Positions 2,640-50,729 of a DNA stretch of 64,000 nucleotides are shown here, in pieces. The DNA comes from Siphonodentalium dalli (Eukaryota; Mollusca; Scaphopoda; Gadilida; Siphonodentaliidae): NCBI GenBank assembly GCA_032622095.1, contig CP136068.1:47176443-47240442 (forward strand), given 5' to 3'. The position numbers and the translations under genes are program-made. Position 1 is the stretch's first letter, and the number at the start of each line of letters is the position of its first letter. The notes under the pieces are model-generated. The model did no database searches. It was not told the DNA's origin and saw nothing but the letters and a program-made list of their open reading frames with translations.

Positions 2640-4300
2640 TATCAATGATAGTGCATATCCGCTCGCCATCCGTGACGCAAATGACACCAAATGTGATTTA
2701 CTTCATGATATATCATTAGAGAAAAACGTGTATGAATTTGGTGGAATTTGGTTTATGAAATCAATTGTTGACGCAACGCTGACTCGAACAACGCCATATT
2801 TCGAAGGTGATTAATTATGTATTCGTTTGGTGGAAATCAGCGACAAAACTATTTCACCATATTTTTTTAATTTTGCCGACCTCCCCCCTTTCTTCCCCTG
2901 ACACCAACAGCGTCATTTTAGAAAATTTTAACCCGCATCATTATCTTCCTTGTAAAAAGTTACCCCCCTTATAACGCCTTGGTGTCATCTCGATTGTACC
3001 GCGTGAAGTTATATATAGAACGCACACAGACCGACAAAAAGACAGACAGACAGCACGATTTGATTTCTTGTGTCATTTGAGAAGAACGTGTCTGAATTTG
3101 ATGGTAATTGGTACTAAAAATATTTTGTATCAGTTTTGGTGACCCTCCCGTCCCTATTTCGGACTCAAGCTGCACACACTAACACTCATTAGAAATTAGA
3201 GATGCATATATATGAAATTGGAGAAAATTGGCGAGTATACAAATTCATATCAAATTTAAGGTCCCCATATCTCTCACCCATAGGGCACCAATTTGGTGTA
3301 TCTAAACCACACGATAAGATTCCTCGTATCACGGAGAAGAATATGTATCAATCTGGTGGAAATCGGCACCAAACATATAGATATAATTTTTTGTGTCTCT
3401 CTCATCTCTATACACCACTGACTCGAATGGCCCCACTTGTCACATCCTTAAACCACACGATTGCACTCCTGATATCATGGAGATGATTGTTTATAAGTTT
3501 GGTGATAATCGGCCACTAAACAAATTGTTTTTATCAAATTTGGTGCCAATCCCTCCCCTCTACATCTCTCACTCAAACAGCACCACAATGGCGTCTTTAA
3601 ATCACGATTAGATTCCTCGTATCATGGATAAGAACGTGTATCAATTTGGTGGAAATTGGCGCTAAAAAAATTGTTCATCTATGTTGGTGCCCCTGTCCCT
3701 TTCAATGCAAACCTGACTCGAATGAGGCCACATTTGACAGATAAAAGCCACACCATTAGACTCCTCATACCATGTGGTGGCAATCGGCGACTTATTATCA
3801 AATTTAGTGCCCACCCCCTCCCAAACTCTCATCCAAAAACAACAATTTGGCTTTGTTAAATCGCACAATTAGATTCATTGTATCATAAAGAAGAATATAT
3901 ATCAATTTGGTGGAAATCGGCGCCAAAATTAGTTTGATTAATTTTGGTGCCCCTCTCCCCTTCTGTTCATCCCTGACTCAAACGACGCCACTTTTGACAC
4001 ATTTAAACCACACCGTTGGATTCTTAATATCATGAGGATGATTATATGTATGTTTCGTAGCCAATCGGCGACAGAAAAAAAATCCGCCCCGCCCCTTCCG
4101 GGCACACCAGACGCGAACGGCGCGACTTTTGCCATATTTAAACCACGCCATTAGATTCCTCATATTATGGGGATGATTATATATAAGTTTGGTGGCAATC
4201 GGCGACAAATTTGTTTTCTGCCCCTCCCCCTTTTCTGCCCCTGACAACAACGGCGTCACTTTAGAAAATTCTAACCCCGACCATTATCTTTCTCGTAAAA
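2640..4300 (-). repeat. Degenerate tandem repeat inside Helitron copy 1
   Basis: Phrases such as ATCAATTTGGTGGAAATCGG, 'cctcgtatcatgga' and 'cctgactcgaat' recur roughly every 180-200 bases, with a half-period near 100. A larger duplication also links about 2880-3050 with about 4215-4385 (both contain 'cgtcattttagaaaatt'-type text and end in CAGA runs). The same repeats in the opposite orientation fill about 50820-52150 in copy 2. Confidence 0.6.
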
Positions 4301-5226: not shown

Positions 5227-5232
5227 TATATT
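5227..5232. repeat. Left target-site duplication TATATT
   Basis: The six bases immediately outside the AG terminus are TATATT, identical to the six bases following the CT terminus at 14009-14014. Six base pairs is the duplication length known for Polinton/Maverick integrases. Confidence 0.85.
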
Positions 5233-5284
5233 AGAAGAATAGCCGTCTCGTTACCGTCACATCTAAAAATAGAATCTTTGGGGT

Positions 5285-5520
5285 CTAAAATTGGTTGTAC
5301 TAAAATATTCCCAAAACTTCCAAAATATCAAAACCCAAAAAAAAATTTCAAAACTTCAAAAATTTATTTTTTCAAAAAATTATTTTTTCCAAAAATTATT
5401 TTTTCCAAAAATTATTTTTTCCAAAAAATTTATAAATTTCCAAACTTCCAAATTATCAAAACCCCAAAATTTCCAAACTTCCAAATTATCAAAACCCCCA
5501 AAATTGTTTAAATAAAAAAT
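5285..5520. repeat. A/T-rich low-complexity subterminal tract (left)
   Basis: Repeats of CCAAAAATTATTTTTT and CCAAACTTCCAAATTATC. The left copy has one extra unit of about 16 bp relative to the mirror tract at about 13740-13950, which accounts for the shift in mirror sum from 19257 to 19241. Open frames across it (5278-5515) are lysine/phenylalanine-rich by-products. Confidence 0.75.
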
Positions 5521-5562
5521 TTATAACGAGTTTTCGGTTTCTGATAAACTCGAAATTAAAAA

Positions 5563-6084
5563 ATGTCGAATGTTAAATTATTTGCGCGTAATATCTTTCG
5601 TAATATTTTTTGTTCAAATATTTTTCATGAATTTATTAATCGATGTTTAGAAAATAGCTTTATTGGACATTGTGACCATCGATATGAATGCATACATTCC
5701 AGTGTTTTATCGGACGCAGTTCATATAATTGTCATACCTGAAAATAGACACTATTACTTTTACATAAATAATAAAGAGCGTTTATTCTTTACACTCTCTC
5801 TATCCCATATGACAGGTGTGTATTATCGTGAATTATTGGAAGTATTGAGACTAACGGTCGAAAATTGTAATGTGAAATTAGAACCCTCCAGAATGAATTG
5901 TTCGCTGTACACGCAATCACACGCGACATTGGTCGTGTGTCACACCTTTGCTTTACCAAATGAATTATATTATTTCCCCGCTCACAGTTATATGGTATTC
6001 AGAAAACATATCGATTTAATGTCTGAACAAAACGGGTTAGTATCAATTAAGGTTGATAAACTGTGTCATTCACACGATAATTAG
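5563..6084 (+). CDS. Unrecognised 173-aa Polinton-borne protein, left copy
   Basis: I do not recognise this protein. The ORF runs ATG to TAG over 173 codons just inside the element terminus and points inward. It is rich in Phe, His, Cys and Asn, with a basic, Phe-rich start (MSNVKLFARNIFRNIF), a possible C/H cluster near residues 38-47, and alternating hydrophobic stretches suggestive of beta strands. There is no signal peptide or clear membrane helix. Its exact conservation in the mirror copy at 13173-13694 argues for recent duplication or gene conversion, and the open frame in an AT-rich context argues that it is coding. Candidates by position include a small Polinton virion or accessory protein, but nothing in the sequence proves this. 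Confidence 0.6.
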   Translation: MSNVKLFARNIFRNIFCSNIFHEFINRCLENSFIGHCDHRYECIHSSVLSDAVHIIVIPENRHYYFYINNKERLFFTLSLSHMTGVYYRELLEVLRLTVENCNVKLEPSRMNCSLYTQSHATLVVCHTFALPNELYYFPAHSYMVFRKHIDLMSEQNGLVSIKVDKLCHSHDN

Positions 6085-6305
6085 TTAGCCAAAACATGCA
6101 TACATATTACGTCAGGTCGTGAGACACTCAATTATAGAAATTGCTTTGATGACATTGTTATAACAACATTACGTAATAACCCCTTATCACTCCAGTCACA
6201 CTTACGATCATATACCGAAACTACAGGTAGCACCGATGATGTAACATTATATCACTGCTATTGTACCAATGATAGGTTCAGACATGTTCCATGTTTAGAA
6301 AAGAA

Positions 6306-6359
6306 AAGTTACCTATAATTCTGCTGTGGTTAAGCAGTCCATTAGTTAGGGCATACCTG
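6306..6359 (+). repeat. Half copy of the TA-flanked MITE family in the left arm
   Basis: AGTTACCTATAATTCTGC, then TGTGGTTAAGCAGTCC and AGGGCATACCTGTA, closely follow the right end of the MITE found at 22220, 30998, 35936 and 37722 (AGTTACCCATAATTCTGC ... AGGGCATTACTGTA). Only one half is present. It is mirrored at 12898-12951, so it was in the arm before the arm was duplicated. Confidence 0.6.
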
Positions 6360-6376
6360 TATGTAGGCCTACCAGT

Positions 6377-6555
6377 GGATGAATAGTCTGCCGGAGAAGT
6401 ACTGTGTAGACAGGTCTTGTCGGTAAGAGAGTCAGACGAGTAGTGAAGGCTCGGCTATTAAAACATAGTAACGCGATAGCGAACATCAAACGAGTCTGCG
6501 CACGCATATCTGTCAAAGGATACAAGGGCAGTCATTGGTCAATTTATCCCCGGTG
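6377..6555 (+). repeat. Internal repeat A of the left arm
   Basis: About 180 bp beginning GATGAATAGTCTGCCGGAGA and including CAGGTCTTGTCGGTAAGAG and ACGAGTCTG. It is repeated in the same orientation at 9260-9455, nearer the centre, with scattered differences and a short insertion there. Together with the two mirror copies it occurs four times in the element. No function is known. It contains a donor-like GTCGGTAAGAG. Confidence 0.75.
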
Positions 6556-7448
6556 TCAGCTCAGTACCCAATCGGGACGAAGCCGAAGGTCAACTCATTT
6601 TTTTTTTGCTCATTATAGTACGTCACTTGGACATTTTATCAGTTTATCACGTCATCACTAAATGTGGCAATCGGGTATCCACCGATGCCTGCAATTTATT
6701 ATTTATAATAATTGGACTCATTGATCTCACGTAAATAATACTCTTAGTTGTTCCAATAAAATAGTTATCAAATTCGATCACCAATAGATTTGACTGTGGA
6801 ATATAATGACCTTTAACTTATTTATCGATCTATGTTAGAACATGGTCTTAACAAAAAACTTGACCATAACAAAAATTACCTTACATTTATGCATGAATCT
6901 AATTAGACCATGCGTAAATATTGTCAGCTTATCGTCTGATGAGCAAATCCGATGTTTATCAAAAATAGTACAACTTCCAGTTGGTAATTACTCTTACGAA
7001 TGAAGAGCGTTGAACATATACGAAATTACTACACGAATGAACTGAAATTTATATTTCACATCTTACCAACAACAGATACAGACATAGTCATAGTGTTATA
7101 CTATCTTACATGTACACACGCTATGACATCATTCGAAGGGGCACTACACTCAAGGAGTTAAAGTGACACGAAACAAGGGACGTGATGCAATATTGGTGTT
7201 TGAATATTAAAAGGAACACAAGACACTCTAAAGGGACACTCATTATGAATGAATGTTAACAATACAAGCGCAGTGGTTGAAAGTTAAAATGACAGATCAA
7301 TATTTAAGGGTCAAATTTTCGGGGCACTTAATGCACCTTTTATCATTACGTATCGTTTCTCACTCTACAATTCCCAATAATCCACACACTCTCTCCCTCC
7401 CCCAGCTTATAGATATATAACGAAAACGAGAATATCATGTTGATGAAG
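6556..7448. other. Non-coding Polinton interior, left arm
   Basis: About 0.9 kb between repeat A and the ATPase 3' end. It is AT-rich with no ORF of note and is mirrored at about 11809-12701. Nothing further can be assigned. Confidence 0.5.
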
Positions 7449-7454
7449 TTTATT
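7449..7454 (-). terminator. Polyadenylation signal of the left ATPase gene
   Basis: TTTATT on the plus strand, i.e. AATAAA on the minus strand, begins five bases after the stop codon of the ATPase gene. It indicates a very short 3' UTR, as in compact viral genes. Confidence 0.6.
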
Positions 7455-7459
7455 GAAAT

Positions 7460-9160
7460 TTAATCGTCCGAATTGTCATCACTTTCGCCAGAAGTGTCAT
7501 ATGTTACGTCCATGAATTTTTCTAGCATCGGTTTGTACTTTAATATTGACATTTTCACTGCATCATATTCTCCATAACCATTATTCAAATATTTGTCGAC
7601 TTTATCCATGACTCTGTTGTGCAGAGTCCCATTGCGCAGCTGCAGATACGATACTATTGTCCAAGCATAATCAGTCATAAAGTGTATCATATCTTTACTT
7701 TTAAGATCCTTGTCAGCTTGTTCTTTTGCTTCTGCGTCTTTAGGGCCATTTTCCTTATACGTGTCCACTTTATCACTCCATTCCTCACGTGTTTTATCTC
7801 TACTTTCATCACGCAAACTTTTGAAGTATTCATCTTCATTCAATTTAATTTCCTTATTCTGACTATCATCCGGGTCCTCAGTTAATTTTCGTTTTAACTT
7901 ATTTTCTTGACACCAGTTTTTTACGTGTCTCTGAACATCATAATGATCTGCGAACAAAAGCCCGCATTCATTACAAGGGTACGACATGTCTTCTTGAATG
8001 TCTCTGTTTTGATGGTTCTTCTTATTAATTTCATCGAGCTCACCAGGTGGCCGTATGTCGTTAGTATAGTCATTATGTTGACCCTGGGGCACAATATAAT
8101 TATATGTTATGCCCTTCTGTTGACCGGGGAGTTCTCTGTCATCGTATTTCATCGCATTATGTTGACCCTGGGTCTCAGTGTCTTTTGTATGTTTTATCAT
8201 CCCATTCTGTTCATCTGGGTGTTCTCTGTCTTTTTGGAGATTATATTTCATGCCATTCCATTCACCCCTATGTTGGTTCGTGTCCTCTTTTAGTACATTC
8301 TGTCGCAGACGTAATGTGTCCGGTGTTGCGGCTTTTAAATCCACCAGTAGGTAACCGTACGGTTCACTCGTCGCTTCCGAAAACTCTCGAACCATACGCT
8401 GAGGACATTCAGGATACATCTGTCTTGATAATGTTGAAATTAATCCCTTGTCGATTGGGTTATTGAACAATACCAAATATTGACAATTTCGTCGTTGCGT
8501 TGGATCTTTGTTGTAGTAGAAATTCTGGTTCAAACTTATCAAAGATAAGTTCAAATGGTGACTTCCTTCGGAATGCAAATCATTAACTCTCTGGTCTTTT
8601 GATGAAGTTTGCATCAAGTCATCGAGTATAACTAGATTTTTATACCGGGGGTTGATAAGCGAATCCAAGTTTGCTGGTATTCCTCGTATAAAGTTGACCT
8701 GAGGGGTGACGGTATACTTTAATTCGTCATATAGGGGCTGCCAATATTTATAAAACCATATTATTCTGTCAGGTGCGGGTGATATTTTTGAGGCAGACTT
8801 TTGTAGTAAGGTTTTCACGAAGTATGTCTTACCACAAGATGTCGGTCCACTTACACATGCCGTGAATGGATGCTTGAAAATAAAATCTTCATGGACATTG
8901 GCCATTGGATCATCTAAGCAGGATGTTATGTCGCTTTGTTGCTGTGTCCCCTGCTGGTGTTGTAGTATCTGGTGTGGCTGTAATGGCTGTTGTTGTGGCT
9001 GATGATACTGCTGCCTGTTGCTGCTACGGTCTGTTGCTGTTGCTTGGTGCTGCTGCTGGGGGTGTCGGTTAACAAACTCAGTGTGCTTAGATTGTACATG
9101 TCTTATCAAATCATGGTTCCGCACATACCCCCTAGAGCAAATTGAACACTGGTGCTTCAT
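7460..9160 (-). CDS. Polinton-type packaging ATPase with zinc fingers, left copy
   Basis: 566 codons. Residues 5-26 form a C2H2 finger (CSIC ... HVQSKH). Residues 33-77 are a Gln/His-rich linker. An FtsK/HerA (A32-like) ATPase core runs about 94-290: Walker A GPTSCGKT (105-112), Walker B NLVILDDLM (175-183) and a polar sensor segment SLNQNFY (209-215). A charged, repetitive linker follows, then a second C2HC-type finger (C396, C399, H412, C417) and an acidic helical tail. In Polintons and related DNA viruses this family pumps DNA into capsids (family knowledge). The zinc-finger fusion is seen directly; its role as a DNA- or partner-binding module is inference. The gene points away from the palindrome centre. 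It differs from the mirror copy by four residues (Leu/Phe82, His/Gln334, Asn/Ile367, Pro/Ser near 480), all outside the ATP-binding motifs. Confidence 0.75.
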   Translation of the reverse strand: MKHQCSICSRGYVRNHDLIRHVQSKHTEFVNRHPQQQHQATATDRSSNRQQYHQPQQQPLQPHQILQHQQGTQQQSDITSCLDDPMANVHEDFIFKHPFTACVSGPTSCGKTYFVKTLLQKSASKISPAPDRIIWFYKYWQPLYDELKYTVTPQVNFIRGIPANLDSLINPRYKNLVILDDLMQTSSKDQRVNDLHSEGSHHLNLSLISLNQNFYYNKDPTQRRNCQYLVLFNNPIDKGLISTLSRQMYPECPQRMVREFSEATSEPYGYLLVDLKAATPDTLRLRQNVLKEDTNQHRGEWNGMKYNLQKDREHPDEQNGMIKHTKDTETQGQHNAMKYDDRELPGQQKGITYNYIVPQGQHNDYTNDIRPPGELDEINKKNHQNRDIQEDMSYPCNECGLLFADHYDVQRHVKNWCQENKLKRKLTEDPDDSQNKEIKLNEDEYFKSLRDESRDKTREEWSDKVDTYKENGPKDAEAKEQADKDLKSKDMIHFMTDYAWTIVSYLQLRNGTLHNRVMDKVDKYLNNGYGEYDAVKMSILKYKPMLEKFMDVTYDTSGESDDNSDD

Positions 9161-9259
9161 TTATACTTGACTAAAATGTCTCGGTATATGGATTTCCTTT
9201 ATACAAATGTTCCTTATAACCTAAAAATATGTCATGTCCGTATGTTTGATAACTTTATG

Positions 9260-9455
9260 TAGATGAAATAGTCTGCCGGAGAAGCACTGTGTATACGGGG
9301 AATCAACAGGTCTTGTCGGTAAGAGAGTCAGACGAGAAGTGAAGTATCGACTATTAAAACATAGTAATGCGATAGCGAACATCAAACGAGTCTGGACACG
9401 CATATCTGTCAAAAGATACAAATAGCCGTCATTGGTCAATCTATCCTCGGTATCA
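9260..9455 (+). repeat. Internal repeat B of the left arm
   Basis: Second copy of the repeat at 6377-6555, starting AGATGAAATAGTCTGCCGGA. It lies in the 5' leader region of the ATPase gene next to the GC-rich centre, so a promoter role is possible (inference). Confidence 0.75.
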
Positions 9456-9514
9456 CTTTTCGTTTTACAAAATCAATTTCACCGAGAGGTTCCCTCGTCA
9501 TTTGTAGTGACGTA

Positions 9515-9527
9515 ATTGTGGCACCGC

Positions 9528-9558
<31 letters not shown>

Positions 9559-9742
9559 ATTGCGGTATTTGCCGGCGGCGGCGGCATTGCGGTATTTGCC
9601 GCCGGCGGCGGCGGCATTGCGGTATTTTACTGCGGCGGCTGCATGCGGACCCCGCAGTAAAATACCGCAATGCCGCCGCCGCCGGCGGCAAATACCGCAA
9701 TGCCGCCGCCGCCACCGCCGCCGCCGGCGGCGGTGCCACAAT
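9515..9742. repeat. GC-rich hairpin centre of the palindrome
   Basis: Long runs of GGC/GCC triplets interspersed with ATTGCGGTATT units: three on the left, two on the right in reverse complement. The innermost stem is ATTGCGGTATTTTACTGCGG (9615-9634) against its complement ending at 9671. The unpaired spacer is 17 bp (9635-9651) and contains GCATGC. The left side has one additional ATTGCGGTATT unit. The triplet runs contain shorter self-complementary GCCGCCGGCGGC blocks. This is the only GC-rich island in the element and forms the dyad axis. Confidence 0.85.
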
Positions 9743-9801
9743 TACGTCACTACAAATGACGAGGGAACCTCTCGGTGAAATTGATTTTGTAAAACGAAAA
9801 G

Positions 9802-9997
9802 TGATACCGAGGATAGATTGACCAATGACGGCTATTTGTATCTTTTGACAGATATGCGTGTCCAGACTCGTTTGATGTTCGCTATCGCATTACTATGTTT
9901 TAATAGTCGATACTTCACTTCTCGTCTGACTCTCTTACCGACAAGACCTGTTGATTCCCCGTATACACAGTGCTTCTCCGGCAGACTATTTCATCTA
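9802..9997 (-). repeat. Internal repeat B, right arm
   Basis: Mirror of 9260-9455, in the leader region of the right ATPase gene. Confidence 0.75.
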
Positions 9998-10096
9998 CAT
10001 AAAGTTATCAAACATACGGACATGACATATTTTTAGGTTATAAGGAACATTTGTATAAAGGAAATCCATATACCGAGACATTTTAGTCAAGTATAA

Positions 10097-11797
10097 ATGA
10101 AGCACCAGTGTTCAATTTGCTCTAGGGGGTATGTGCGGAACCATGATTTGATAAGACATGTACAATCTAAGCACACTGAGTTTGTTAACCGACACCCACA
10201 GCAGCAGCACCAAGCAACAGCAACAGACCGTAGCAGCAACAGGCAGCAGTATCATCAGCCACAACAACAGCCATTACAGCCACACCAGATACTACAACAC
10301 CAGCAGGGGACACAGCAACAAAGCGACATAACATCCTGCTTTGATGATCCAATGGCCAATGTCCATGAAGATTTTATTTTCAAGCATCCATTCACGGCAT
10401 GTGTAAGTGGACCGACATCTTGTGGTAAGACATACTTCGTGAAAACCTTACTACAAAAGTCTGCCTCAAAAATATCACCCGCACCTGACAGAATAATATG
10501 GTTTTATAAATATTGGCAGCCCCTATATGACGAATTAAAGTATACCGTCACCCCTCAGGTCAACTTTATACGAGGAATACCAGCAAACTTGGATTCGCTT
10601 ATCAACCCCCGGTATAAAAATCTAGTTATACTCGATGACTTGATGCAAACTTCATCAAAAGACCAGAGAGTTAATGATTTGCATTCCGAAGGAAGTCACC
10701 ATTTGAACTTATCTTTGATAAGTTTGAACCAGAATTTCTACTACAACAAAGATCCAACGCAACGACGAAATTGTCAATATTTGGTATTGTTCAATAACCC
10801 AATCGACAAGGGATTAATTTCAACATTATCAAGACAGATGTATCCTGAATGTCCTCAGCGTATGGTTCGAGAGTTTTCGGAAGCGACGAGTGAACCGTAC
10901 GGTTACCTACTGGTGGATTTAAAAGCCGCAACACCGGACACATTACGTCTGCGACAGAATGTACTAAAAGAGGACACGAACCAACATAGGGGTGAATGGA
11001 ATGGCATGAAATATAATCTCCAAAAAGACAGAGAACACCCAGATGAACAGAATGGGATGATAAAACATACAAAAGACACTGAGACCCAGGGTCAACAGAA
11101 TGCGATGAAATACGATGACAGAGAACTCCCCGGTCAACAGAAGGGCATAACATATAATTATATTGTGCCCCAGGGTCAACATAATGACTATACTATCGAC
11201 ATACGGCCACCTGGTGAGCTCGATGAAATTAATAAGAAGAACCATCAAAACAGAGACATTCAAGAAGACATGTCGTACCCTTGTAATGAATGCGGGCTTT
11301 TGTTCGCAGATCATTATGATGTTCAGAGACACGTAAAAAACTGGTGTCAAGAAAATAAGTTAAAACGAAAATTAACTGAGGACCCGGATGATAGTCAGAA
11401 TAAGGAAATTAAATTGAATGAAGATGAATACTTCAAAAGTTTGCGTGATGAAAGTAGAGATAAAACACGTGAGGAATGGAGTGATAAAGTGGACACGTAT
11501 AAGGAAAATGGCTCTAAAGACGCAGAAGCAAAAGAACAAGCTGACAAGGATCTTAAAAGTAAAGATATGATACACTTTATGACTGATTATGCTTGGACAA
11601 TAGTATCGTATCTGCAGCTGCGCAATGGGACTCTGCACAACAGAGTCATGGATAAAGTCGACAAATATTTGAATAATGGTTATGGAGAATATGATGCAGT
11701 GAAAATGTCAATATTAAAGTACAAACCGATGCTAGAAAAATTCATGGACGTAACATATGACACTTCTGGCGAAAGTGATGACAATTCGGACGATTAA
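10097..11797 (+). CDS. Polinton-type packaging ATPase with zinc fingers, right copy
   Basis: 566 codons, mirror copy of 7460-9160, with the same N-terminal C2H2 finger, Gln-rich linker, Walker A (105-112), Walker B (175-183) and distal C2HC finger, all intact. The start is the first ATG after a run of in-frame stops and places the zinc finger at residue 5; a TATAAATG overlaps the start. It differs from the left copy at four positions. Both copies are full length, so neither has decayed since duplication. AATAAA follows the stop by five bases. A packaging role is inferred from the family, and no capsid gene is present here to act with it. Confidence 0.75.
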   Translation: MKHQCSICSRGYVRNHDLIRHVQSKHTEFVNRHPQQQHQATATDRSSNRQQYHQPQQQPLQPHQILQHQQGTQQQSDITSCFDDPMANVHEDFIFKHPFTACVSGPTSCGKTYFVKTLLQKSASKISPAPDRIIWFYKYWQPLYDELKYTVTPQVNFIRGIPANLDSLINPRYKNLVILDDLMQTSSKDQRVNDLHSEGSHHLNLSLISLNQNFYYNKDPTQRRNCQYLVLFNNPIDKGLISTLSRQMYPECPQRMVREFSEATSEPYGYLLVDLKAATPDTLRLRQNVLKEDTNQHRGEWNGMKYNLQKDREHPDEQNGMIKHTKDTETQGQQNAMKYDDRELPGQQKGITYNYIVPQGQHNDYTIDIRPPGELDEINKKNHQNRDIQEDMSYPCNECGLLFADHYDVQRHVKNWCQENKLKRKLTEDPDDSQNKEIKLNEDEYFKSLRDESRDKTREEWSDKVDTYKENGSKDAEAKEQADKDLKSKDMIHFMTDYAWTIVSYLQLRNGTLHNRVMDKVDKYLNNGYGEYDAVKMSILKYKPMLEKFMDVTYDTSGESDDNSDD

Positions 11798-11802
11798 ATT
11801 TC

Positions 11803-11808
11803 AATAAA
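11803..11808 (+). terminator. Polyadenylation signal of the right ATPase gene
   Basis: AATAAA immediately downstream of the TAA stop codon (11795-11797), mirror of the minus-strand signal at 7449-7454. Confidence 0.6.
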
Positions 11809-12701
11809 CTTCATCAACATGATATTCTCGTTTTCGTTATATATCTATAAGCTGGGGGAGGGAGAGAGTGTGTGGATTATTGGGAATTGTAGAGTGAGAA
11901 ACGATACGTAATGATAAAAGGTGCATTAAGTGCCCCGAAAATTTGACCCTTAAATATTGATCTGTCATTTTAACTTTCAACCACTGCGCTTGTATTGTTA
12001 ACATTCATTCATAATGAGTGTCCCTTTAGAGTGTCTTGTGTTCCTTTTAATATTCAAACACCAATATTGCATCACGTCCCTTGTTTCGTGTCACTTTAAC
12101 TCCTTGAGTGTATTGCCCCTTCGAATGATGTCATAGCGTGTGTACATGTAAGATAGTATAACACTATGACTATGTCTGTATCTGTTGTTGGTAAGATGTG
12201 AAATATAAATTTCAGTTCATTCGTGTAGTAATTTCGTATATGTTCAACGCTCTTCATTCGTAAGAGTAATTACCAACTGGAAGTTGTACTATTTTTGATA
12301 AACATCGGATTTGCTCATCAGACGATAAGCTGACAATATTTACGCATGGTCTAATTAGATTCATGCATAAATGTAAGGTAATTTTTGTTATGGTCAAGTT
12401 TTTTGTTAAGACCATGTTCTAACATAGATCGATAAATAAGTTAAAGGTCATTATATTCCACAGTCAAATCTATTGGTGATCGAATTTGATAACTATTTTA
12501 TTGGAACAACTAAGAGTATTATTTACGTGAGATCAATGAGTCCAATTATTATAAATAATAAATTGCAGGCATCGGTGGATACCCGATTGCCACATTTAGT
12601 GATGACGTGATAAACTGATAAAATGTCCAAGTGACGTACTATAATGAGCAAAAAAAAAATGAGTTGACCTTCGGCTTCGTCCCGATTGGGTACTGAGCTG
12701 A
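11809..12701. other. Non-coding Polinton interior, right arm
   Basis: Mirror of 6556-7448. It is AT-rich and no gene is seen. Confidence 0.5.
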
Positions 12702-12880
12702 CACCGGGGATAAATTGACCAATGACTGCCCTTGTATCCTTTGACAGATATGCGTGCGCAGACTCGTTTGATGTTCGCTATCGCATTACTATGTTTTAAT
12801 AGCCGAGCCTTCACTACTCGTCTGACTCTCTTACCGACAAGACCTGTCTACACAGTACTTCTCCGGCAGACTATTCATCC
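12702..12880 (-). repeat. Internal repeat A, right arm
   Basis: Mirror of 6377-6555. Confidence 0.75.
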
Positions 12881-12897
12881 ACTGGTAGGCCTACATA

Positions 12898-12951
12898 CAG
12901 GTATGCCCTAAATAATGGACTGCTTAACCACAGCAGAATTATAGGTAACTT
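12898..12951 (-). repeat. Half copy of the TA-flanked MITE family in the right arm
   Basis: Mirror of 6306-6359. It carries small differences (AAATAATGG here against CCATTAGTT on the left). Confidence 0.6.
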
Positions 12952-13172
12952 TTCTTTTCTAAACATGGAACATGTCTGAACCTATCATTGGTACAATAGC
13001 AGTGATATAATGTTACATCATCGGTGCTACCTGTAGTTTCGGTATATGATCGTAAGTGTGACTGGAGTGATAAGGGGTTATTACGTAATGTTGTTATAAC
13101 AATGTCATCAAAGCAATTTCTATAATTGAGTGTCTCACGACCTGACGTAATATGTATGCATGTTTTGGCTAA

Positions 13173-13694
13173 CTAATTATCGTGTGAATGACACAGTTTA
13201 TCAACCTTAATTGATACTAACCCGTTTTGTTCAGACATTAAATCGATATGTTTTCTGAATACCATATAACTGTGAGCGGGGAAATAATATAATTCATTTG
13301 GTAAAGCAAAGGTGTGACACACGACCAATGTCGCGTGTGATTGCGTGTACAGCGAACAATTCATTCTGGAGGGTTCTAATTTCACATTACAATTTTCGAC
13401 CGTTAGTCTCAATACTTCCAATAATTCACGATAATACACACCTGTCATATGGGATAGAGAGAGTGTAAAGAATAAACGCTCTTTATTATTTATGTAAAAG
13501 TAATAGTGTCTATTTTCAGGTATGACAATTATATGAACTGCGTCCGATAAAACACTGGAATGTATGCATTCATATCGATGGTCACAATGTCCAATAAAGC
13601 TATTTTCTAAACATCGATTAATAAATTCATGAAAAATATTTGAACAAAAAATATTACGAAAGATATTACGCGCAAATAATTTAACATTCGACAT
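13173..13694 (-). CDS. Unrecognised 173-aa Polinton-borne protein, right copy
   Basis: Identical in amino-acid sequence to the product of 5563-6084. It lies just inside the right terminus and points inward. I do not recognise the family. The identity of the two copies, against four changes in the longer ATPase, fits a very recent duplication or homogenisation. Confidence 0.6.
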   Translation of the reverse strand: MSNVKLFARNIFRNIFCSNIFHEFINRCLENSFIGHCDHRYECIHSSVLSDAVHIIVIPENRHYYFYINNKERLFFTLSLSHMTGVYYRELLEVLRLTVENCNVKLEPSRMNCSLYTQSHATLVVCHTFALPNELYYFPAHSYMVFRKHIDLMSEQNGLVSIKVDKLCHSHDN

Positions 13695-14008
13695 TTTTTA
13701 ATTTCGAGTTTATCAGAAACCGAAAACTCGTTATAAATTTTTTATTTAAACAATTTTGGGGGTTTTGATAATTTGGAAGTTTGGAAATTTTGGGGTTTTG
13801 ATAATTTGGAAGTTTGGAAATTTATAAATTTTTTGGAAAAAATAATTTTTGGAAAAAATAATTTTTTGAAAAAATAAATTTTTGAAGTTTTGAAATTTTT
13901 TTTTGGGTTTTAATATTTTGGAAGTTTTGGGAATATTTTAGTACAACCAATTTTAGACCCCAAAGATTCTATTTTTAGATGTGACGGTAACGAGACGGCT
14001 ATTCTTCT

Positions 14009-14014
14009 TATATT
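14009..14014. repeat. Right target-site duplication TATATT
   Basis: Directly follows the CT terminus of the Polinton and matches 5227-5232 exactly. Confidence 0.85.
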
Positions 14015-22219: not shown

Positions 22220-22401
22220 CAGTAATGCCCTAAGTAATCGACCCCTTAACCACGGCATAATTATGGGTAACTGTTCAGGATTTAGTCGGAAATATCGATT
22301 GTTGCCATTGAATGACAACAAGCAATATTTTCGACTAAATCCTGAAAAGTTACCCATATATTCTGCTGTGGTTAAGGGGTCGATTATTCAGGGCATTACT
22401 G
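22220..22401. mobile_element. TA-flanked MITE (Tc1/mariner type), copy 1
   Basis: Full-length 182-bp inverted-repeat element bounded by TA on both sides. It begins CAGTAATGCCCTAAGTAATC and ends in GGGCATTACTG. The arms also mirror GGATTTAGTCGGAAATA / TTTTCGACTAAATCC. A TA duplication with a CAGT start fits Tc1/mariner-derived MITEs. Confidence 0.75.
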
Positions 22402-40444: not shown

Positions 40445-43400
40445 GTAAGTATATATTTGTGAATGGTTGGCACATTGTGACATTTTGTGTGGATTCGATG
40501 TCGATGTGAAATAATATTGAACACACCAATAGGTATTATTTAAAATAAAAAATTTCGATATATACGTGGAGTACTTTGATACGGACTGTAGACTCATCCA
40601 ATACATCGAATATAAAAAAAATCGGATCCCGCCTTGAAACAGGAAGCAAATTTAGTGTCCATTGTTAGCCTATTCCTTACGATATTATTTTAGAGCGTTT
40701 GCCACAACGCAGTGCAAAACATTTAAAAACAGTTGCAAAATATCTATGACTTTGGTAAGTTCGTTTCGACTTATATTTTTCCTGATACCAAATTACGTAG
40801 TTATGTCTTGGTTCAACTGAGCCATGTCCGTTTTACTGAATCAGTGATCGCTAATACAATACACTAGTGTCGACGTAACAGTAACATATCGCCAATGTTT
40901 TACTGAATCAGTGATCGCTAATAAAATACACTAGTGTCGACGTAACAGTAACATATCGCCAATGTTTTACTGAATCAGTGATCGCTAATAAAATACACTA
41001 GTGTCGACGTAACAGTAACATATCGCCAATGTTTTACTGAATCAGTGATCGCTAATACAATACACTAGTGTCGACGTAACAGTAACATATCGCCAATGTT
41101 TTACTAAATCAGTGATCGCTAATAAAATACACTAGTGTCGACGTAACAGTAACATATCGCCAATGTTTTACTGAATCAGTGATCGCTAATAAAATACACT
41201 AGTGTCGACGTAACAGTAACATATCGCCAATGTTTTACTGAATCAGTGATCGCTAATAAAATACACTAGTGTCGACGTAACAGTAACATATCGCCAATGT
41301 TTTACTGAATCAGTGATCGCTAATACAATACACTAGTGTCGACGTAACAGTAACATATCGCCAATGTTTTACTAAATCAGTGATCGCTAATAAAATACAC
41401 TAGTGTCGACGTAACAGTAACATATCGCCAATGTTTTACTGAATCAGTGATCGCTAATAAAATACACTAGTGTCGACGTAACAGTAACATATCGCCAATG
41501 TTTTACTGAATCAGTGATCGCTAATAAAATACACTAGTGTCGACGTAACAGTAACATATCGCCAATGTTTTACTGAATCAGTGATCGCTAATACAATACA
41601 CTAGTGTCGACGTAACAGTAACATATCGCCAATGTTTTACTGAATCAGTGATCGCTAATACAATACACTAGTGTCGACGTAACAGTAACATATCGCCAAT
41701 GTTTTATATAACATACACTAGTGTCGACATAACAGTAACATATCGCCAATGTTTTATATAACATACACTAGTGTCGACATAACAGTAACATATCGCCAAT
41801 GTTTTATATAACATACACTAGTGTCGACATAACAGTAACATATCGCCAATGTTTTATATAACATACACTAGTGTCGACATAACAGTAACATATCGCCAAT
41901 GTTTTATATAACATACACTAGTGTCGACATAACAGTAACATATCGCCAATGTTTTATATAACATACACTAGTGTCGACATAACAGTAACATATCGCCAAT
42001 GTTTTATATAACATACACTAGTGTCGACATAACAGTAACATATCGCCAATGTTTTATATAACATACACTAGTGTCGACATAACAGTAACATATCGCCAAT
42101 GTTTTATATAACATACACTAGTGTCGACATAACAGTAACATATCGCCAATGTTTTATATAACATACACTAGTGTCGACATAACAGTAACATATCGCCAAT
42201 GTTTTATATAACATACACTAGTGTCGACATAACAGTAACATATCGCCAATGTTTTACTGAATCAGTGATCGCTAATAAAATACACTAGTGTCGACGTAAC
42301 AGTAACATATCGCCAATGTTTTACTGAATCAGTGATCGCTAATACAATACACTAGTGTCGACGTAACAGTAACATATCGCCAATGTTTTACTAAATCAGT
42401 GATCGCTAATAAAATACACTAGTGTCGACGTAACAGTAACATATCGCCAATGTTTTACTGAATCAGTGATCGCTAATAAAATACACTAGTGTCGACGTAA
42501 CAGTAACATATCGCCAATGTTTTACTGAATCAGTGATCGCTAATACAATACACTAGTGTCGACGTAACAGTAACATATCGCCAATGTTTTACTGAATCAG
42601 TGATCGCTAATACAATACACTAGTGTCGACGTAACAGTAACATATCGCCAATGTTTTATATAACATACACTAGTGTCGACATAACAGTAACATATCGCCA
42701 ATGTTTTACTGAATCAGTGATCGCTAATAAAATACACTAGTGTCGACGTAACAGTAACATATCGCCAATGTTTTACTGAATCAGTGATCGCTAATAAAAT
42801 ACACTAGTGTCGACGTAACAGTAACATATCGCCAATGTTTTACTGAATCAGTGATCGCTAATACAATACACTAGTGTCGACGTAACAGTAACATATCGCC
42901 AATGTTTTACTGAATCAGTGATCGCTAATACAATACACTAGTGTCGACGTAACAGTAACATATCGCCAATGTTTTATATAACATACACTAGTGTCGACAT
43001 AACAGTAACATATCGCCAATGTTTTACTGAATCAGTGATCGCTAATACAATACACTAGTGTCGACATAACAGTAACATATCGCCAATGTTTTACTGAATC
43101 AGTGATCGCTAATACAATACACTAGTGTCGACGTAACAGTAACATATCGCCAATGTTTTACATAACATACACTAGTGTCGACATAACAGTAACATATCGC
43201 CAATGTTTTACTGAATCAGTGATCGCTAATAAAATACACTAGTGTCGACGTAACAGTAACATATCGCCAATGTTTTATATAACATACACTAGTGTCGACG
43301 TAACAGTAACATATCGCCAATGTTTTACTGAATCAGTGATCGCTAATAAAATACACTAGTGTCGACGTAACAGTAACATATCGCCAATGTTTTACTGAAT

Positions 43401-46400
43401 CAGTGATCGCTAATACAATACACTAGTGTCGACGTAACAGTAACATATCGCCAATGTTTTACTGAATCAGTGATCGCTAATACAATACACTAGTGTCGAC
43501 GTAACAGTAACATATCGCCAATGTTTTACTGAATCAGTGATCGCTAATACAATACACTAGTGTCGACGTAACAGTAACATATCGCCAATGTTTTATATAA
43601 CATACACTAGTGTCGACATAACAGTAACATATCGCCAATGTTTTACTGAATCAGTGATCGCTAATAAAATACACTAGTGTCGACGTAACAGTAACATATC
43701 GCCAATGTTTTATATAACATACACTAGTGTCGACATAACAGTAACATATCGCCAATGTTTTACTGAATCAGTGATCGCTAATAAAATACACTAGTGTCGA
43801 CGTAACAGTAACATATCGCCAATGTTTTATATAACATACACTAGTGTCGACGTAACAGTAACATATCGCCAATGTTTTACTGAATCAGTGATCGCTAATA
43901 AAATACACTAGTGTCGACGTAACAGTAACATATCGCCAATGTTTTACTGAATCAGTGATCGCTAATACAATACACTAGTGTCGACGTAACAGTAACATAT
44001 CGCCAATGTTTTACTGAATCAGTGATCGCTAATACAATACACTAGTGTCGACGTAACAGTAACATATCGCCAATGTTTTATATAACATACACTAGTGTCG
44101 ACATAACAGTAACATATCGCCAATGTTTTACTGAATCAGTGATCGCTAATACAATACACTAGTGTCGACATAACAGTAACATATCGCCAATGTTTTACTG
44201 AATCAGTGATCGCTAATACAATACACTAGTGTCGACGTAACAGTAACATATCGCCAATGTTTTATATAACATACACTAGTGTCGACATAACAGTAACATA
44301 TCGCCAATATTTTACTGAATCAGTGATCGCTAATAAAATACACTAGTGTCGACGTAACAGTAACATATCGCCAATGTTTTACTGAATCAGTGATCGCTAA
44401 TACAATACACTAGTGTCGACGTAACAGTAACATATCGCCAATGTTTTACTAAATCAGTGATCGCTAATAAAATACACTAGTGTCGACGTAACAGTAACAT
44501 ATCGCCAATGTTTTACTGAATCAGTGATCGCTAATACAATACACTAGTGTCGACATAACAGTAACATATCGCCAATGTTTTACTGAATCAGTGATCGCTA
44601 ATAAAATACACTAGTGTCGACGTAACAGTAACATATCGCCAATGTTTTACTGAATCAGTGATCGCTAATAAAATACACTAGTGTCGACGTAACAGTAACA
44701 TATCGCCAATGTTTTACTGAATCAGTGATCGCTAATAAAATACACTAGTGTCGACGTAACAGTAACATATCGCCAATGTTTTATATAACATACACTAGTG
44801 TCGACATAACAGTAACATATCGCCAATGTTTTATATAACAGTGTCGACGTAACAGTAACATATCGCCAATGTTTTACTGAATCAGTGATCGCTAATACAA
44901 TACACTAGTGTCGACGTAACAGTAACATATCGCCAATGTTTTATATAACATACACTAGTGTCGACATAACAGTAACATATCGCCAATGTTTTAATGAATC
45001 AGTGATCGCTAATAAAATACACTAGTGTCGACGTAACAGTAACATATCGCCAATGTTTTACTGAATCAGTGATCGCTAATACAATACACTAGTGTCGACG
45101 TAACAGTAACATATCGCCAATGTTTTATATAACATACACTAGTGTCGACATAACAGTAACATATCGCCAATGTTTTACTGAATCAGTGATCGCTAATAAA
45201 ATACACTAGTGTCGACGTAACAGTAACATATCGCCAATGTTTTACTGAATCAGTGATCGCTAATACAATACACTAGTGTCGACTTAACAGTAACATATCG
45301 CCAATGTTTTACTGAATCAGTGATCGCTAATACAATACACTAGTGTCGACGTAACAGTAACATATCGCCAATGTTTTACTGAATCAGTGATCGCTAATAC
45401 AATACACTAGTGTCGACGTAACAGTAACATATCGCCAATGTTTTACTGAATCAGTGATCGCTAATACAATACACTAGTGTCGACGTAACAGTAACATATC
45501 GCCAATGTTTTACTGAATCAGTGATCGCTAATAAAATACACTAGTGTCGACGTAACAGTAACATATCGCCAATGTTTTACTGAATCAGTGATCGCTAATA
45601 CAATACACTAGTGTCGACGTAACAGTAACATATCGCCAATGTTTTACTGAATCAGTGATCGCTAATACAATACACTAGTGTCGACGTAACAGTAACATAT
45701 CGCCAATGTTTTATATAACATACACTAGTGTCGACATAACAGTAACATATCGCCAATGTTTTACTGAATCAGTGATCGCTAATAAAATACACTAGTGTCG
45801 ACGTAACAGTAACATATCGCCAATGTTTTACTGAATCAGTGATCGCTAATACAATACACTAGTGTCGACGTAACAGTAACATATCGCCAATGTTTTATAT
45901 AACATACACTAGTGTCGACATAACAGTAACATATCGCCAATGTTTTACTGAATCAGTGATCGCTAATACAATACACTAGTGTCGACGTAACAGTAACATA
46001 TCGCCAATGTTTTACTGAATCAGTGATCGCTAATACAATACACTAGTGTCGACGTAACAGTAACATATCGCCAATGTTTTATATAACATACACTAGTGTC
46101 GACATAACAGTAACATATCGCCAATGTTTTACTGAATCAGTGATCGCTAATAAAATACACTAGTGTCGACGTAACAGTAACATATCGCCAATGTTTTACT
46201 GAATCAGTGATCGCTAATACAATACACTAGTGTCGACGTAACAGTAACATATCGCCAATGTTTTACTAAATCAGTGATCGCTAATAAAATACACTAGTGT
46301 CGACGTAACAGTAACATATCGCCAATGTTTTATATAACATACACTAGTGTCGACATAACAGTAACATATCGCCAATGTTTTACTGAATCAGTGATCGCTA

Positions 46401-49400
46401 ATACAATACACTAGTGTCGACGTAACAGTAACATATCGCCAATGTTTTACTGAATCAGTGATCGCTAATACAATACACTAGTGTCGACGTAACAGTAACA
46501 TATCGCCAATGTTTTATATAACATACACTAGTGTCGACATAACAGTAACATATCGCCAATGTTTTACTGAATCAGTGATCGCTAATAAAATACACTAGTG
46601 TCGACGTAACAGTAACATATCGCCAATGTTTTACTGAATCAGTGATCGCTAATACAATACACTAGTGTCGACGTAACAGTAACATATCGCCAATGTTTTA
46701 CTAAATCAGTGATCGCTGATAAAATACACTAGTGTCGACGTAACAGTAACATATCGCCAATGTTTTATATAACATACACTAGTGTCGACATAACAGTAAC
46801 ATATCGCCAATGTTTTACTGAATCAGTGATCGCTAATAAAATACACTAGTGTCGACGTAACAGTAACATATCGCCAATGTTTTACTGAATCAGTGATCGC
46901 TAATACAATACACTAGTGTCGACGTAACAGTAACATATCGCCAATGTTTTATATAACATACACTAGTGTCGACATAACAGTAACATATCGCCAATGTTTT
47001 ACTGAATCAGTGATCGCTAATAAAATACACTAGTGTCGACGTAACAGTAACATATCGCCAATGTTTTACTGAATCAGTGATCGCTAATACAATACACTAG
47101 TGTCGACGTAACAGTAACATATCGCCAATGTTTTACTAAATCAGTGATCGCTAATAAAATACACTAGTGTCGACGTAACAGTAACATATCGCCAATGTTT
47201 TATATAACATACACTAGTGTCGACATAACAGTAACATATCGCCAATGTTTTACTGAATCAGTGATCGCTAATAAAATACACTAGTGTCGACGTAACAGTA
47301 ACATATCGCCAATGTTTTATATAACATACACTAGTGTCGACATAACAGTAACATATCGCCAATGTTTTACTGAATCAGTGATCGCTAATAAAATACACTA
47401 GTGTCGACGTAACAGTAACATATCGCCAATGTTTTACTGAATCAGTGATCGCTAATACAATACACTAGTGTCGACGTAACAGTAACATATCGCCAATGTT
47501 TTACTAAATCAGTGATCGCTAATAAAATACAATAGTGTCGACGTAACAGTAACATATCGCCAATGTTTTACTGAATCAGTGATCGCTAATAAAATACACT
47601 AGTGTCGACGTAACAGTAACATATCGCCAATGTTTTACTAAATCAGTGATCGCTAATAAAATACACTAGTGTCGACGTAACAGTAACATATCGCCAATGT
47701 TTTATATAACATACACTAGTGTCGACATAACAGTAACATATCGCCAATGTTTTACTGAATCAGTGATCGCTAATACAATACACTAGTGTCGACGTAACAG
47801 TAACATATCGCCAATGTTTTACTAAATCAGTGATCGCTAATAAAATACACTAGTGTCGACGTAACAGTAACATATCGCCAATGTTTTATATAACATACAC
47901 TAGTGTCGACATAACAGTAACATATCGCCAATGTTTTACTGAATCAGTGATCGCTAATAAAATACACTAGTGTCGACGTAACAGTAACATATCGCCAATG
48001 TTTTACTGAATCAGTGATCGCTAATACAATACACTAGTGTCGACGTAACAGTAACATATCGCCAATGTTTTACTAAATCAGTGATCGCTAATAAAATACA
48101 CTAGTGTCGACGTAACAGTAACATATCGCCAATGTTTTACTGAATCAGTGATCGCTAATAAAATACACTAGTGTCGACGTAACAGTAACATATCGCCAAT
48201 GTTTTACTGAATCAGTGATCGCTAATACAATACACTAGTGTCGACGTAACAGTAACATATCGCCAATGTTTTACTAAATCAGTGATCGCTAATAAAATAC
48301 ACTAGTGTCGACGTAACAGTAACATATCGCCAATGTTTTATATAACATACACTAGTGTCGACATAACAGTAACATATCGCCAATGTTTTACTGAATCAGT
48401 GATCGCTAATACAATACACTAGTGTCGACGTAACAGTAACATATCGCCAATGTTTTACTAAATCAGTGATCGCTAATAAAATACACTAGTGTCGACGTAA
48501 CAGTAACATATCGCCAATGTTTTACTGAATCAGTGATCGCTAATACAATACACTAGTGTCGACGTAACAGTAACATATCGCCAATGTTTTACTAAATCAG
48601 TGATCGCTAATAAAATACACTAGTGTCGACGTAACAGTAACATATCGCCAATGTTTTATATAACATACACTAGTGTCGACATAACAGTAACATATCGCCA
48701 ATGTTTTACTGAATCAGTGATCGCTAATACAATACACTAGTGTCGACGTAACAGTAACATATCGCCAATGTTTTACTAAATCAGTGATCGCTAATAAAAT
48801 ACACTAGTGTCGACGTAACAGTAACATATCGCCAATGTTTTATATAACATACACTAGTGTCGACATAATAGTAACATATCGCCAATGTTTTACTGAATCA
48901 GTGATCGCTAATAAAATACACTAGTGTCGACGTAACAGTAACATATCGCCAATGTTTTACTGAATCAGTGATCGCTAATACAATACACTAGTGTCGACGT
49001 AACAGTAACATATCGCCAATGTTTTATATAACATACACTAGTGTCGACATAACAGTAACATATCGCCAATGTTTTACTGAATCAGTGATCGCTAATAAAA
49101 TACACTAGTGTCGACGTAACAGTAACATATCGCCAATGTTTTACTGAATCAGTGATCGCTAATACAATACACTAGTGTCGACGTAACAGTAACATATCGC
49201 CAATGTTTTACTAAATCAGTGATCGCTAATAAAATACACTAGTGTCGACGTAACAGTAACATATCGCCAATGTTTTACTGAATCAGTGATCGCTAATACA
49301 ATACACTAGTGTCGACGTAACAGTAACATATCGCCAATGTTTTATATAACATACACTAGTGTCGACATAACAGTAACATATCGCCAATGTTTTACTGAAT

Positions 49401-50729
49401 CAGTGATCGCTAATAAAATACACTAGTGTCGACGTAACAGTAACATATCGCCAATGTTTTACTGAATCAGTGATCGCTAATACAATACACTAGTGTCGAC
49501 GTAACAGTAACATATCGCCAATGTTTTACTAAATCAGTGATCGCTAATAAAATACACTAGTGTCGACGTAACAGTAACATATCGCCAATGTTTTATATAA
49601 CATACACTAGTGTCGACATAACAGTAACATATCGCCAATGTTTTATATAACATACACTGGTGTCGACGTAACAGTAACATATCGCCAATGTTTTATATAA
49701 CAGTGTCGACGTAACAGTAACATATCGCCAATGTTTTATATAACATACGTTGACACTAGTATCGACGTAACAGTAACATATCGCCAATGTTTTATATAAC
49801 ATACACTGGTGTCGACGTAACAGTAACATATCGCCAATGTTTTATATAACATACGTTGACACTAGTATCGACGTAACAGTAACATATCGCCAATGTTTTA
49901 TATAACATACACTAGTGTCGACGTAACAGTAACATATCGCCAATGTTTTATATAACAGTGTCGACGTAACAGTAACATATCGCCAATGTTTTATATAACA
50001 TACACTAGTGTCGACGTAACAGTAACATATCGCCAATGTTTTATATAACATACACTAGTATCGACGTAACAGTAACATATCGCCAATGTTTTATATAAAA
50101 TACACTAGTGTCGACGTAATGTAACATATCGCCAATGTTTTATATAACAGTGTCGACGTAATGTAACATATCGCCAATGTTTTATATAACAGTGTCGACG
50201 TAACAGTAACATATCGCCAATGTTTTATATAACAGTGTCGACGTAACAGTAACATATCGCCAATGTTTTATATAAAATACACTAGTGTCGACGCAACAGT
50301 AACATATCGCCAATGTTTTATATAACAGACGTAAAAGTAACATATCGCCAATGTTTTATATAACAGACGTAAAAGTAACATATCGCCAATGTTTTATATA
50401 ACAGACGTTCGACTGGTGAATGGACTTGGAAAACAATTTTCAATAAAAAAAAAACGATATCTCGTTTGTTTTATTGTTTTACCTTGGGGGGGGGGGGTTA
50501 TAGTCGTGTTTTGTGATTTTATCACGTAGCTTTGTTTAGATCTACACACGAACATATTAGATACTGTACATCTAATTGGATTATGGCGCAACATAACCTC
50601 ATGTCGCCGTTGAAAAGAAGCTATATCTGTACACTGTTGTGATACTTTTCCGTTTACATGTACTGTAAAAACGAAAGCAGCAAACGTTTGAGTTAAATAT
50701 AATACATAATATATTATTATTATTTCCAG
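40445..50729 (+). other. RLC intron D, almost entirely satellite
   Basis: 10,285-bp intron with donor GTAAGT and acceptor TATTATTATTTCCAG. About 93 percent of it is the tandem array at 40831-50408. The remaining flanks (40445-40830 and 50409-50729) show no feature except a poly-G run near 50486. Confidence 0.85.
40831..50408 (+). repeat. Satellite array with higher-order structure (67/50-bp units)
   Basis: About 9.6 kb, of the order of 150 units. The long unit (67 bp) runs TTTTACTGAATCAGTGATCG, CTAATACAATACACTAGTGT, CGACGTAACAGTAACATATC, GCCAATG. The short unit (50 bp) replaces the first 28 or so bases by TTTTATATAACAT. Variants are linked: long units carry GTCGACGTAAC, short ones mostly GTCGACATAAC; long units split into GAATC+TAAAATAC (A), GAATC+TACAATAC (B) and AAATC+TAAAATAC (C). 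The left end reads B, AABC, AABC, AAB, B, then eleven short units in a row (41701-42250). Later parts often read A-B-C-short. The 3' end is decayed to 43- and 38-bp units. Every full unit holds the palindromes ACACTAGTGT and GTCGAC. Confidence 0.97.

Follow-up and report, generated by a model that had tools for sequence, protein, structure and literature searches.

What kind of element is a palindrome of almost nine kilobases that carries the ends of a Polinton and hardly any of its genes, and how might it be propagated? This question is raised by a stretch of 64,000 nucleotides from the scaphopod Siphonodentalium dalli (contig CP136068.1, C8:47176443-47240442, in a genome of 2.23 Gb in 9 contigs), hereafter the window, in which an inverted palindrome of 8776 bp occupies positions 5233-14008, from AGAAGAATAGCC at its left end to GGCTATTCTTCT at its right end. 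The palindromic element is genuine, and the target duplication that an original prediction had read from the letters alone was found again, as TATATT at 5227-5232 and at 14009-14014. Comparing the element with its relatives and with a Polinton of the same genome, we came to the view that it probably belongs to a family of helper-dependent Polinton satellites, the self-complementary genomes of which would be made by fold-back replication.

The two arms of the element are inverted over approximately 4.3 kb and differ, outside the centre, by 9 substitutions and one 16-bp indel. Each arm consists of an outer part, which resembles the terminal inverted repeat (TIR) of a Polinton, and an inner module. 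The left outer part (arm positions 1-1070; 5233-6302, plus strand) shares about 88% identity with the TIR of a 16.3-kb Polinton, and its mirror on the right lies at 12955-14008 on the minus strand (a coordinate mirrored by hand, with the 16-bp indel allowed for). The inner modules span 6303-9497, where nothing matches the examined Polinton copy at the DNA level, and 9760-12954, placed as the mirror of the left one by comparison of the arms. Both TIRs hold an open reading frame (ORF) of 173 aa (5563-6084, plus strand; 13173-13694, minus strand), and both inner modules an ORF for a 566-aa ATPase, the two copies being divergent (7460-9160, minus strand; 10097-11797, plus strand). All four ORFs are open in the window element, as had been claimed. 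The same source had called the element fully palindromic, which holds for the arms and is slightly too strong for the whole, since the centre (9498-9759, 68% GC, with inward-facing GGCGGCGGCATTGCGGTATTT-type repeats) is an imperfect palindrome. Inside the centre, at 9628-9665, lies a hairpin core, placed by eye, that is shortened in this copy (TTTTACTG...GCAGTAAAA).

The end motif of the element, in which AGAAGA is a doubled trinucleotide, recurs throughout the genome. With two mismatches at most, 1007 matches lie in forward and 969 in reverse orientation, and chance as its source is excluded by the contrast between these 1976 matches and none in the reversed control. Intact vertebrate Mavericks are described, in the accessible part of PMC8097293, with 6-bp duplications, TIRs and doubled AGT ends. 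Whole elements were delimited among the first 100 end-motif places, all on contig 1, of which 84 formed 42 inward-facing pairs once 8 inner end duplicates, 3 single ends and all but one of the six plus ends in a tandem array had been set aside. By length, 22 of these pairs measure 7-10.3 kb, 10 measure 15-18 kb and 10 fall elsewhere, and in 40 of the 42 the same 4-letter variant is present at both ends (chance 0.117). The target duplications of the copies examined with both arms are perfect and mutually different in all cases (9/9). Among 15 further elements, a script recognized a 6-bp duplication in 14, comprising 11 palindromes and 3 elements of 16 kb (one of these read), and the fifteenth, in which two bases of the left end are changed, is flanked by AACCAG as seen by eye. 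Further palindromic copies with different duplications, which the original prediction had proposed to look for, are thus present in the same genome.

As to the number of palindromes, a search with one arm gave a lower bound, with 18 of 3891 candidates scored, and returned at least 18 places, 17 of them with both inverted arms. The eighteenth (L003, C8:46173465-46181009), about 1 Mb away, shares its right flank with the window element, lacks part of its left arm, and is apparently a segmental duplicate of the window copy. A search for the ATPase listed 77 stop-free ORFs of 5300 candidates; 64 of the 77 make 32 pairs, every one of them divergent (minus/plus) and spaced by 820-1149 bp. Five of the 13 unpaired ORFs sit in elements already known (four palindromes and the duplicate L003), and when the upstream side of the other eight was fetched, an inverted counterpart was present in seven, in one over just ~380 bp. 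Mid-points were fetched for 20 contig-1 elements of intermediate size (7.7-13.5 kb), and 17 of them contain inverted repeats, four over only 300-520 bp within the fetched stretch. In a further one the arms are inverted over 1180 bp at 93.9% identity, and another is partly inverted, which gives 18 of the 20 with inverted arms and one more with them in part; the last (L040, 13.5 kb) is not counted among these. Two irregular forms were seen among the eight unpaired ATPases fetched: one of the seven with a counterpart is a nested palindrome with two cores (L077, C6:128782473-128784273), and the eighth is a single-arm element (L073, C4:185268379-185270179), in which the end (1-287) is joined straight to the central hairpin and the outer flanks read CATAGG on both sides, by eye.

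The left halves of eight elements revealed two further classes beside that of the window element (class A). One has an ATPase with a different N-terminal finger, which is open at 584 aa in L046 and split into two ORFs in L043 and L044; the other, class C (L045, L047-L050), has no ATPase ORF and holds a 189-aa C2H2 finger protein and about 470 bp that match the Polinton. The five class C elements also have an internal copy of the end sequence near the centre. Between two of the classes, the ATPase domain has 2 synonymous changes and 0 non-synonymous ones, and the C-terminal part 4 and 17, respectively. The 173-aa ORF is full length, among the copies checked, only in the window element and its nearby segmental duplicate, and in none of the 16 arms of 8 other copies is it open to 140 aa or more. 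The inner modules are nearly identical among copies on different contigs, which argues for descent and not for repeated formation, and the whole looks like an established, diversified satellite family rather than a sporadic defective genome. Other arrangements with related ends were noted on contig 1. Six ends in one direction, spaced at about 5.4 kb and with a single opposite end behind them (L079, C1:159746532-159783967), resemble a head-to-tail tandem array, and at one junction of this series a fresh end stands behind finger-protein-like sequence, by eye. A 4.7-kb element with the same ends and, by eye, GATACC flanks (C1:46816177-46820900) contains a minisatellite of AAATGAGCA-type units, and a 13.2-kb element (C1:113158717-113171916) has a divergent ATPase pair and a core that lies away from the middle, at 0.305 of the element's length.

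A satellite needs a helper, and candidate helper Polintons occur in the same genome. One long element was read, in two pieces (L041/L042, 16.3 kb, C1:82.68 Mb). Its TIRs of about 1.2 kb are 95.6% identical, and its proteins match, above the Pfam cut-off, rve (1.4e-14), a chromodomain (8.6e-8) and DNA_pol_B_2 (2.9e-51, in a 952-aa pPolB), and, below the cut-off, Peptidase_C5 (5.8e-4, a protease-like ORF) and Pox_A32 (0.0032, the ATPase); its capsid-like ORFs have no Pfam match. Judged by its sequence, this element is a Polinton, the general gene set of which is outlined in the available portions of PMC6431247 and PMC11071308. At least 48 stop-free pPolB ORFs are present in the genome (48 listed of 2328 candidates). 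The original prediction had looked to a Polinton with a terminal region matching 5233-9634; such an element exists, and its match is limited to 5233-6302. Specifically, the window arm matches L041/L042 at arm positions 54-1070, at approximately 88%, i.e. in the terminal repeat only, and beyond ~1070 blastn found no DNA match to this one Polinton copy. The Polinton frame that corresponds to the 173-aa ORF is open for 131 aa.

At the protein level, likewise, hardly anything is shared. When the 11 ORFs of this Polinton copy were compared with the element by tblastn, the ATPase was the sole match (E 7e-26), which bears out the earlier claim that no other Polinton genes are present. Every match of the remaining ORFs had E >= 0.09, with best values of 0.19 for the 952-aa pPolB, 2.0 for the retroviral-type integrase, 0.37 for the protease-like ORF, and 1.7 for a 421-aa ORF that is called capsid-like from its position and length and has no Pfam match. 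The 566-aa protein exceeds the curated Pfam cut-off for zf-C2H2 (5.3e-6) and Pox_A32 (1.3e-5), and consists of an N-terminal C2H2 finger, an A32/FtsK-type domain and a second C2H2-like finger; it is 30% identical over 206 aa to the ATPase of L041/L042, and by this homology the satellite ATPase is a zinc-finger-fused paralogue of the Polinton ATPase. Below the cut-off it has weak matches to PF00910 RNA_helicase (E 0.043) and Adeno_IVa2 (E 0.0097). The Pfam scan of the two ORFs found no transposase domain and no Rep/NS1 (HUH, SF3), the zinc finger and Pox_A32 being all that exceeded the cut-off. In scans of viral contigs, 12 pattern matches to the ATPase and 4 to the 173-aa ORF included no relative, a scan of phage records for relatives gave none, the 12 weak PDB matches were all zinc-finger entries (best E 0.1), and PHROGs gave weak matches only (E 0.25 and 0.014).

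The arms of most of these elements meet in a GC-rich core. In class A (n = 9) the centres measure 262-426 bp at 68-74% GC, and the core (TTTTACTG...CAGTAAAA) encloses two adjacent inverted repeats. For one version of the core, the predicted DNA fold is a perfect three-way T, with a stem and two 10-bp hairpins and only the loops unpaired (-49.6 kcal/mol, z -10.8); a second version is predicted to take the same shape with a few unpaired bases (-43.7, z -8.75), and for either version 0 of 200 shuffles were equally stable. In the integrated form, the predicted T fold is central, not terminal. Genome-wide the core has 278 matches (143 + 135), against 0 for the control; the near equality of the two orientations was not used as evidence of core flip/flop, as a palindromic element has no defined genomic orientation. 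We found the core at 27 of 38 centres or mid-points, namely in 8 of 10 class A copies (full in these 8, shortened in the window copy, absent in one), at 11 of the 20 contig-1 mid-points, and in all 8 of the set of unpaired ATPases, with three of the 19 cores in the pattern scan of the latter two sets being shorter in form. Seven of the 13 contig-1 cores listed lie within a delimited end pair (6 pairs from the end-motif listing and one from a TIR search), six of them at 0.50-0.54 of the length and one at 0.305. The flanks of the core vary by class (TGACGTAATTGTGGCACC, CATTCATCGGAAAGCTCTC, TTCAAAAATAAGACCCC or CAA repeats, by eye), and at least four different arm contexts run into the same core, also by eye, which ties palindrome formation to the core rather than to a single founding event. 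Polinton-like ends, cargo such as a packaging-type ATPase, and a central hairpin of predicted T shape in many copies, taken together, suggest a self-folding satellite that lives off Polintons.

A comparison of the arms within and between copies bears on how the palindromes are maintained. Over the outer 330 bp of nine copies, the arms of one copy differ by 0.3-1.1%, versus a between-copy median of 9-15%, with the two closest copies differing by 1.1%. A tree built from the outer 1070 bp groups the two arms of each copy as sisters (9/9, with starred support in 8), and this pairing of TIR arms, in spite of the divergence between copies, suggests that the palindrome is rebuilt from one arm. Across the outer 852 positions, 18 within-copy substitutions stand against 150 between-copy sites at which both arms agree. 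Altogether, arm-to-arm substitutions fall in 64 columns, of which 57 are confined to one copy and 7 occur in two, while at 243 sites both arms agree and it is the copies that differ. One allele is unique in the set in 49 of the 57 single-copy columns, both alleles occur elsewhere in 4, and neither does in 4. The arm differences thereby look mostly later than insertion, as regeneration from one arm predicts.

The mechanism we propose starts from a satellite built of two head-to-head half-units, each with a Polinton-type TIR outside, cargo (in the window element, the zinc-finger/packaging-type ATPase), and, in most copies, the GC-rich T hairpin inside. What the sequence establishes is the structure and the existence of a family; we infer fold-back replication, helper action in trans, and packaging, the helper action from the shared ends together with the missing genes. 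Helper dependence and integration in trans, both proposed by the original prediction, would fit these data. Polintons of the same genome would supply a protein-primed polymerase and an integrase, both acting on the shared TIR. Copying would begin at the TIR and proceed to the hairpin, where the nascent or displaced strand would fold back and copy its own arm, which would restore a self-complementary genome bounded by two TIRs and make its arms identical. In protein-primed genomes, TIRs are kept alike via annealing of the ends; here the inverted repeat would be extended to the middle, so that the whole strand could fold on itself with the core as its turning point. The integrase would then insert the palindromic duplex with a 6-bp duplication, and the satellite ATPase would probably steer its DNA into helper capsids or compete with helper packaging.

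Several observations weigh against this account. The 15-18 kb elements also have matching ends, so that end homogeneity is not specific to palindromes, and the strong homogeneity signal comes from the TIR, where the 16-kb elements match at their ends as well. The tree of the inner part pairs the arms in 5/9 copies (with starred support in one), the other 4 being unresolved, and in the ATPase or middle region, where differences are very few, some arms resemble another copy more closely than their own partner. Homogenization in every cycle is not proven, given the 7 of 64 arm-difference columns common to two copies, one of which lies in the ATPase. The substitution counts leave out indels, with 186 gap-mismatched columns in C9_210, 100 in C3_266 and 0-32 in the others. 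The pattern scan detected no core at 9 of the 20 contig-1 mid-points (3 of these stretches do not include the centre of the palindrome), and since the core is missing or shortened in some copies, a copy can persist in its absence once integrated. For selection on the ATPase there is no proof, the changes being too few. Nor was a Polinton found whose TIR comes close to identity with that of the window element, other matches reaching 94% over the whole query or 96% over part of it in elements of unassigned type, and a search with the closest TIRs singled out no helper. Neither replication intermediates nor particles were observed.

A simpler history, which we consider unlikely though deserving of attention, is that these are ordinary non-autonomous Polintons, in which one or a few recombinations produced a palindrome that has since been copied whole, with the arms kept alike by occasional gene conversion and the hairpin without a role. 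Terminal repeats and 6-bp duplications of the kind seen in the 16-kb elements would fit such a history, as would the copies that lack a core, the few arm differences that recur in two copies, and the four copies of nine in which, outside the TIR, the arms do not resolve as sisters. It has difficulty with the four or more arm contexts that end in the same core (by eye), and with the near-complete agreement of the arms in what is the most divergent part of the family.

It is improbable that the elements are sporadic defective-interfering derivatives, formed by repeated snap-back of the Polinton itself, which is how the original prediction had explained the window element. The outer 1.07 kb does match the Polinton TIR, and class C palindromes hold the extra Polinton piece of about 470 bp. 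Against this stand the inner 3.3 kb, without a match to the one Polinton copy examined, the distance of the ATPase paralogue (30% identity), the near identity of inner modules on different contigs, and the recurrence of the core at 27/38 centres. Moreover, among the matches listed, no pPolB of the 48 has a second one, or one of the 77 ATPases, as a neighbour within 20 kb. On these comparisons a snap-back deletion of the helper appears largely refuted. Still harder to sustain, and in our estimation very improbable, is an independent hairpin virus, parvovirus-like or of another kind, which took on the ends of Polintons and uses its ATPase for replication and not for packaging; the predicted T-shaped core shares the topology of the terminal repeat of adeno-associated virus (AAV) and the ATPase has its weak, sub-cut-off PF00910 match, but the two scanned ORFs have no Rep/NS1 or capsid domain, and the ATPase is related to that of the Polinton, with a weak match to Adeno_IVa2 that is likewise below the cut-off. 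Long palindromes are a known type of artefact, and yet false inverted duplication from long-read chimeras is scarcely credible here, given different flanks on the two sides with a 6-bp duplication at 9/9 loci, private substitutions in the arms, and the expectation that a fold-back chimera would invert the flank as well.

The remaining features of the window can be listed briefly. Within the element, a direct repeat in the left arm (6375-6558) is 85% identical to 9259-9455, upstream of the left ATPase ORF, and self-comparison placed the corresponding repeats of the right half at 9802-9998, upstream of the right ATPase ORF, and at 12699-12882. The border between TIR and inner module (6303-6364, arm 1071-1132) consists of about 60 bp of a dispersed repeat that recurs near 22344, 31017, 36014, 37720 and 37866. 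Outside the element, a 9.6-kb minisatellite with units of 67 and 50 bp (ATACACTAGTGTCGACGTAACAG...) spans 40830-50406, and an inverted pair of 0.9-kb repeats, 80% alike, lies at 3122-4013 and 50821-51743. Rfam and tRNA scans of the window gave no match.

Known systems share single traits with the satellites. Polinton/Maverick elements have in common with them the doubled-trinucleotide AGAAGA ends, a TIR (here ~1.1 kb), the 6-bp duplication and a homologous packaging-type ATPase; unlike Polintons, the element is about half as long, is one inverted repeat in its entirety, has no pPolB, integrase, protease or capsid gene that we found, and combines a zinc-finger-fused ATPase with a central T hairpin. 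Hairpin or palindromic forms derived from pGKL1 are found in Kluyveromyces. The reference list of PMC11071308 names a deletion derivative, in hairpin and duplex form, of the Neurospora kalilo plasmid (Vierula & Bertrand 1992). Such derivatives share with the satellites a protein-primed replicon with hairpin and duplex forms, and they are deletion derivatives of one plasmid, whereas the satellites have many integrated copies, gene cargo of their own and a shared hairpin module. The terminal repeat of AAV is a T-shaped hairpin with a stem and two short arms, and in self-complementary AAV an internal hairpin joins two inverted arms. Snap-back AAV genomes also exist, according to the part of PMC8235507 available. 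The likeness, i.e. a predicted T hairpin, inverted arms joined by an internal hairpin, and putative helper dependence, is one of topology; the satellites are integrated double-stranded elements with Polinton ends and no Rep domain that we found. Phage satellites of the PICI and P4 type are short and helper-dependent, with a packaging-related gene of their own, and the element would resemble them in these respects, differing in that it is eukaryotic and palindromic; redirection of packaging is here a conjecture. Galileo, a foldback-type transposon, is a P-superfamily element as stated in the part of PMC4168063 that was available; foldback-type elements also consist mostly of long inverted repeats, and unlike Galileo the present element has Polinton ends, coding arms and a GC-rich core. 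In the literature found, mostly titles and the openings of abstracts and largely outside subscription journals, no palindromic Polinton is described.

Beyond the reading as fold-back satellites, we put forward a wider proposal to which we give a little less than an even chance, that these elements are an undescribed class of eukaryotic satellites parasitising Polintons, with hairpin-centred self-complementary genomes, a packaging ATPase of their own that captures helper capsids, and spread by fold-back at a T-element able to make varied half-units palindromic. If this is true, Polintons have parasites of their own, as phages and giant viruses do, and the satellites would support a present or recent cycle of real Polinton replication and packaging in the host. 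Self-complementary DNA of known size would be a marker of that cycle, by which the question of particles becomes testable. With protein-primed replication as their basis, the satellites would moreover stand as a eukaryotic analogue, arisen in nature, of AAV-type self-complementary genomes, and they would account for the origin and persistence of very long genomic palindromes.

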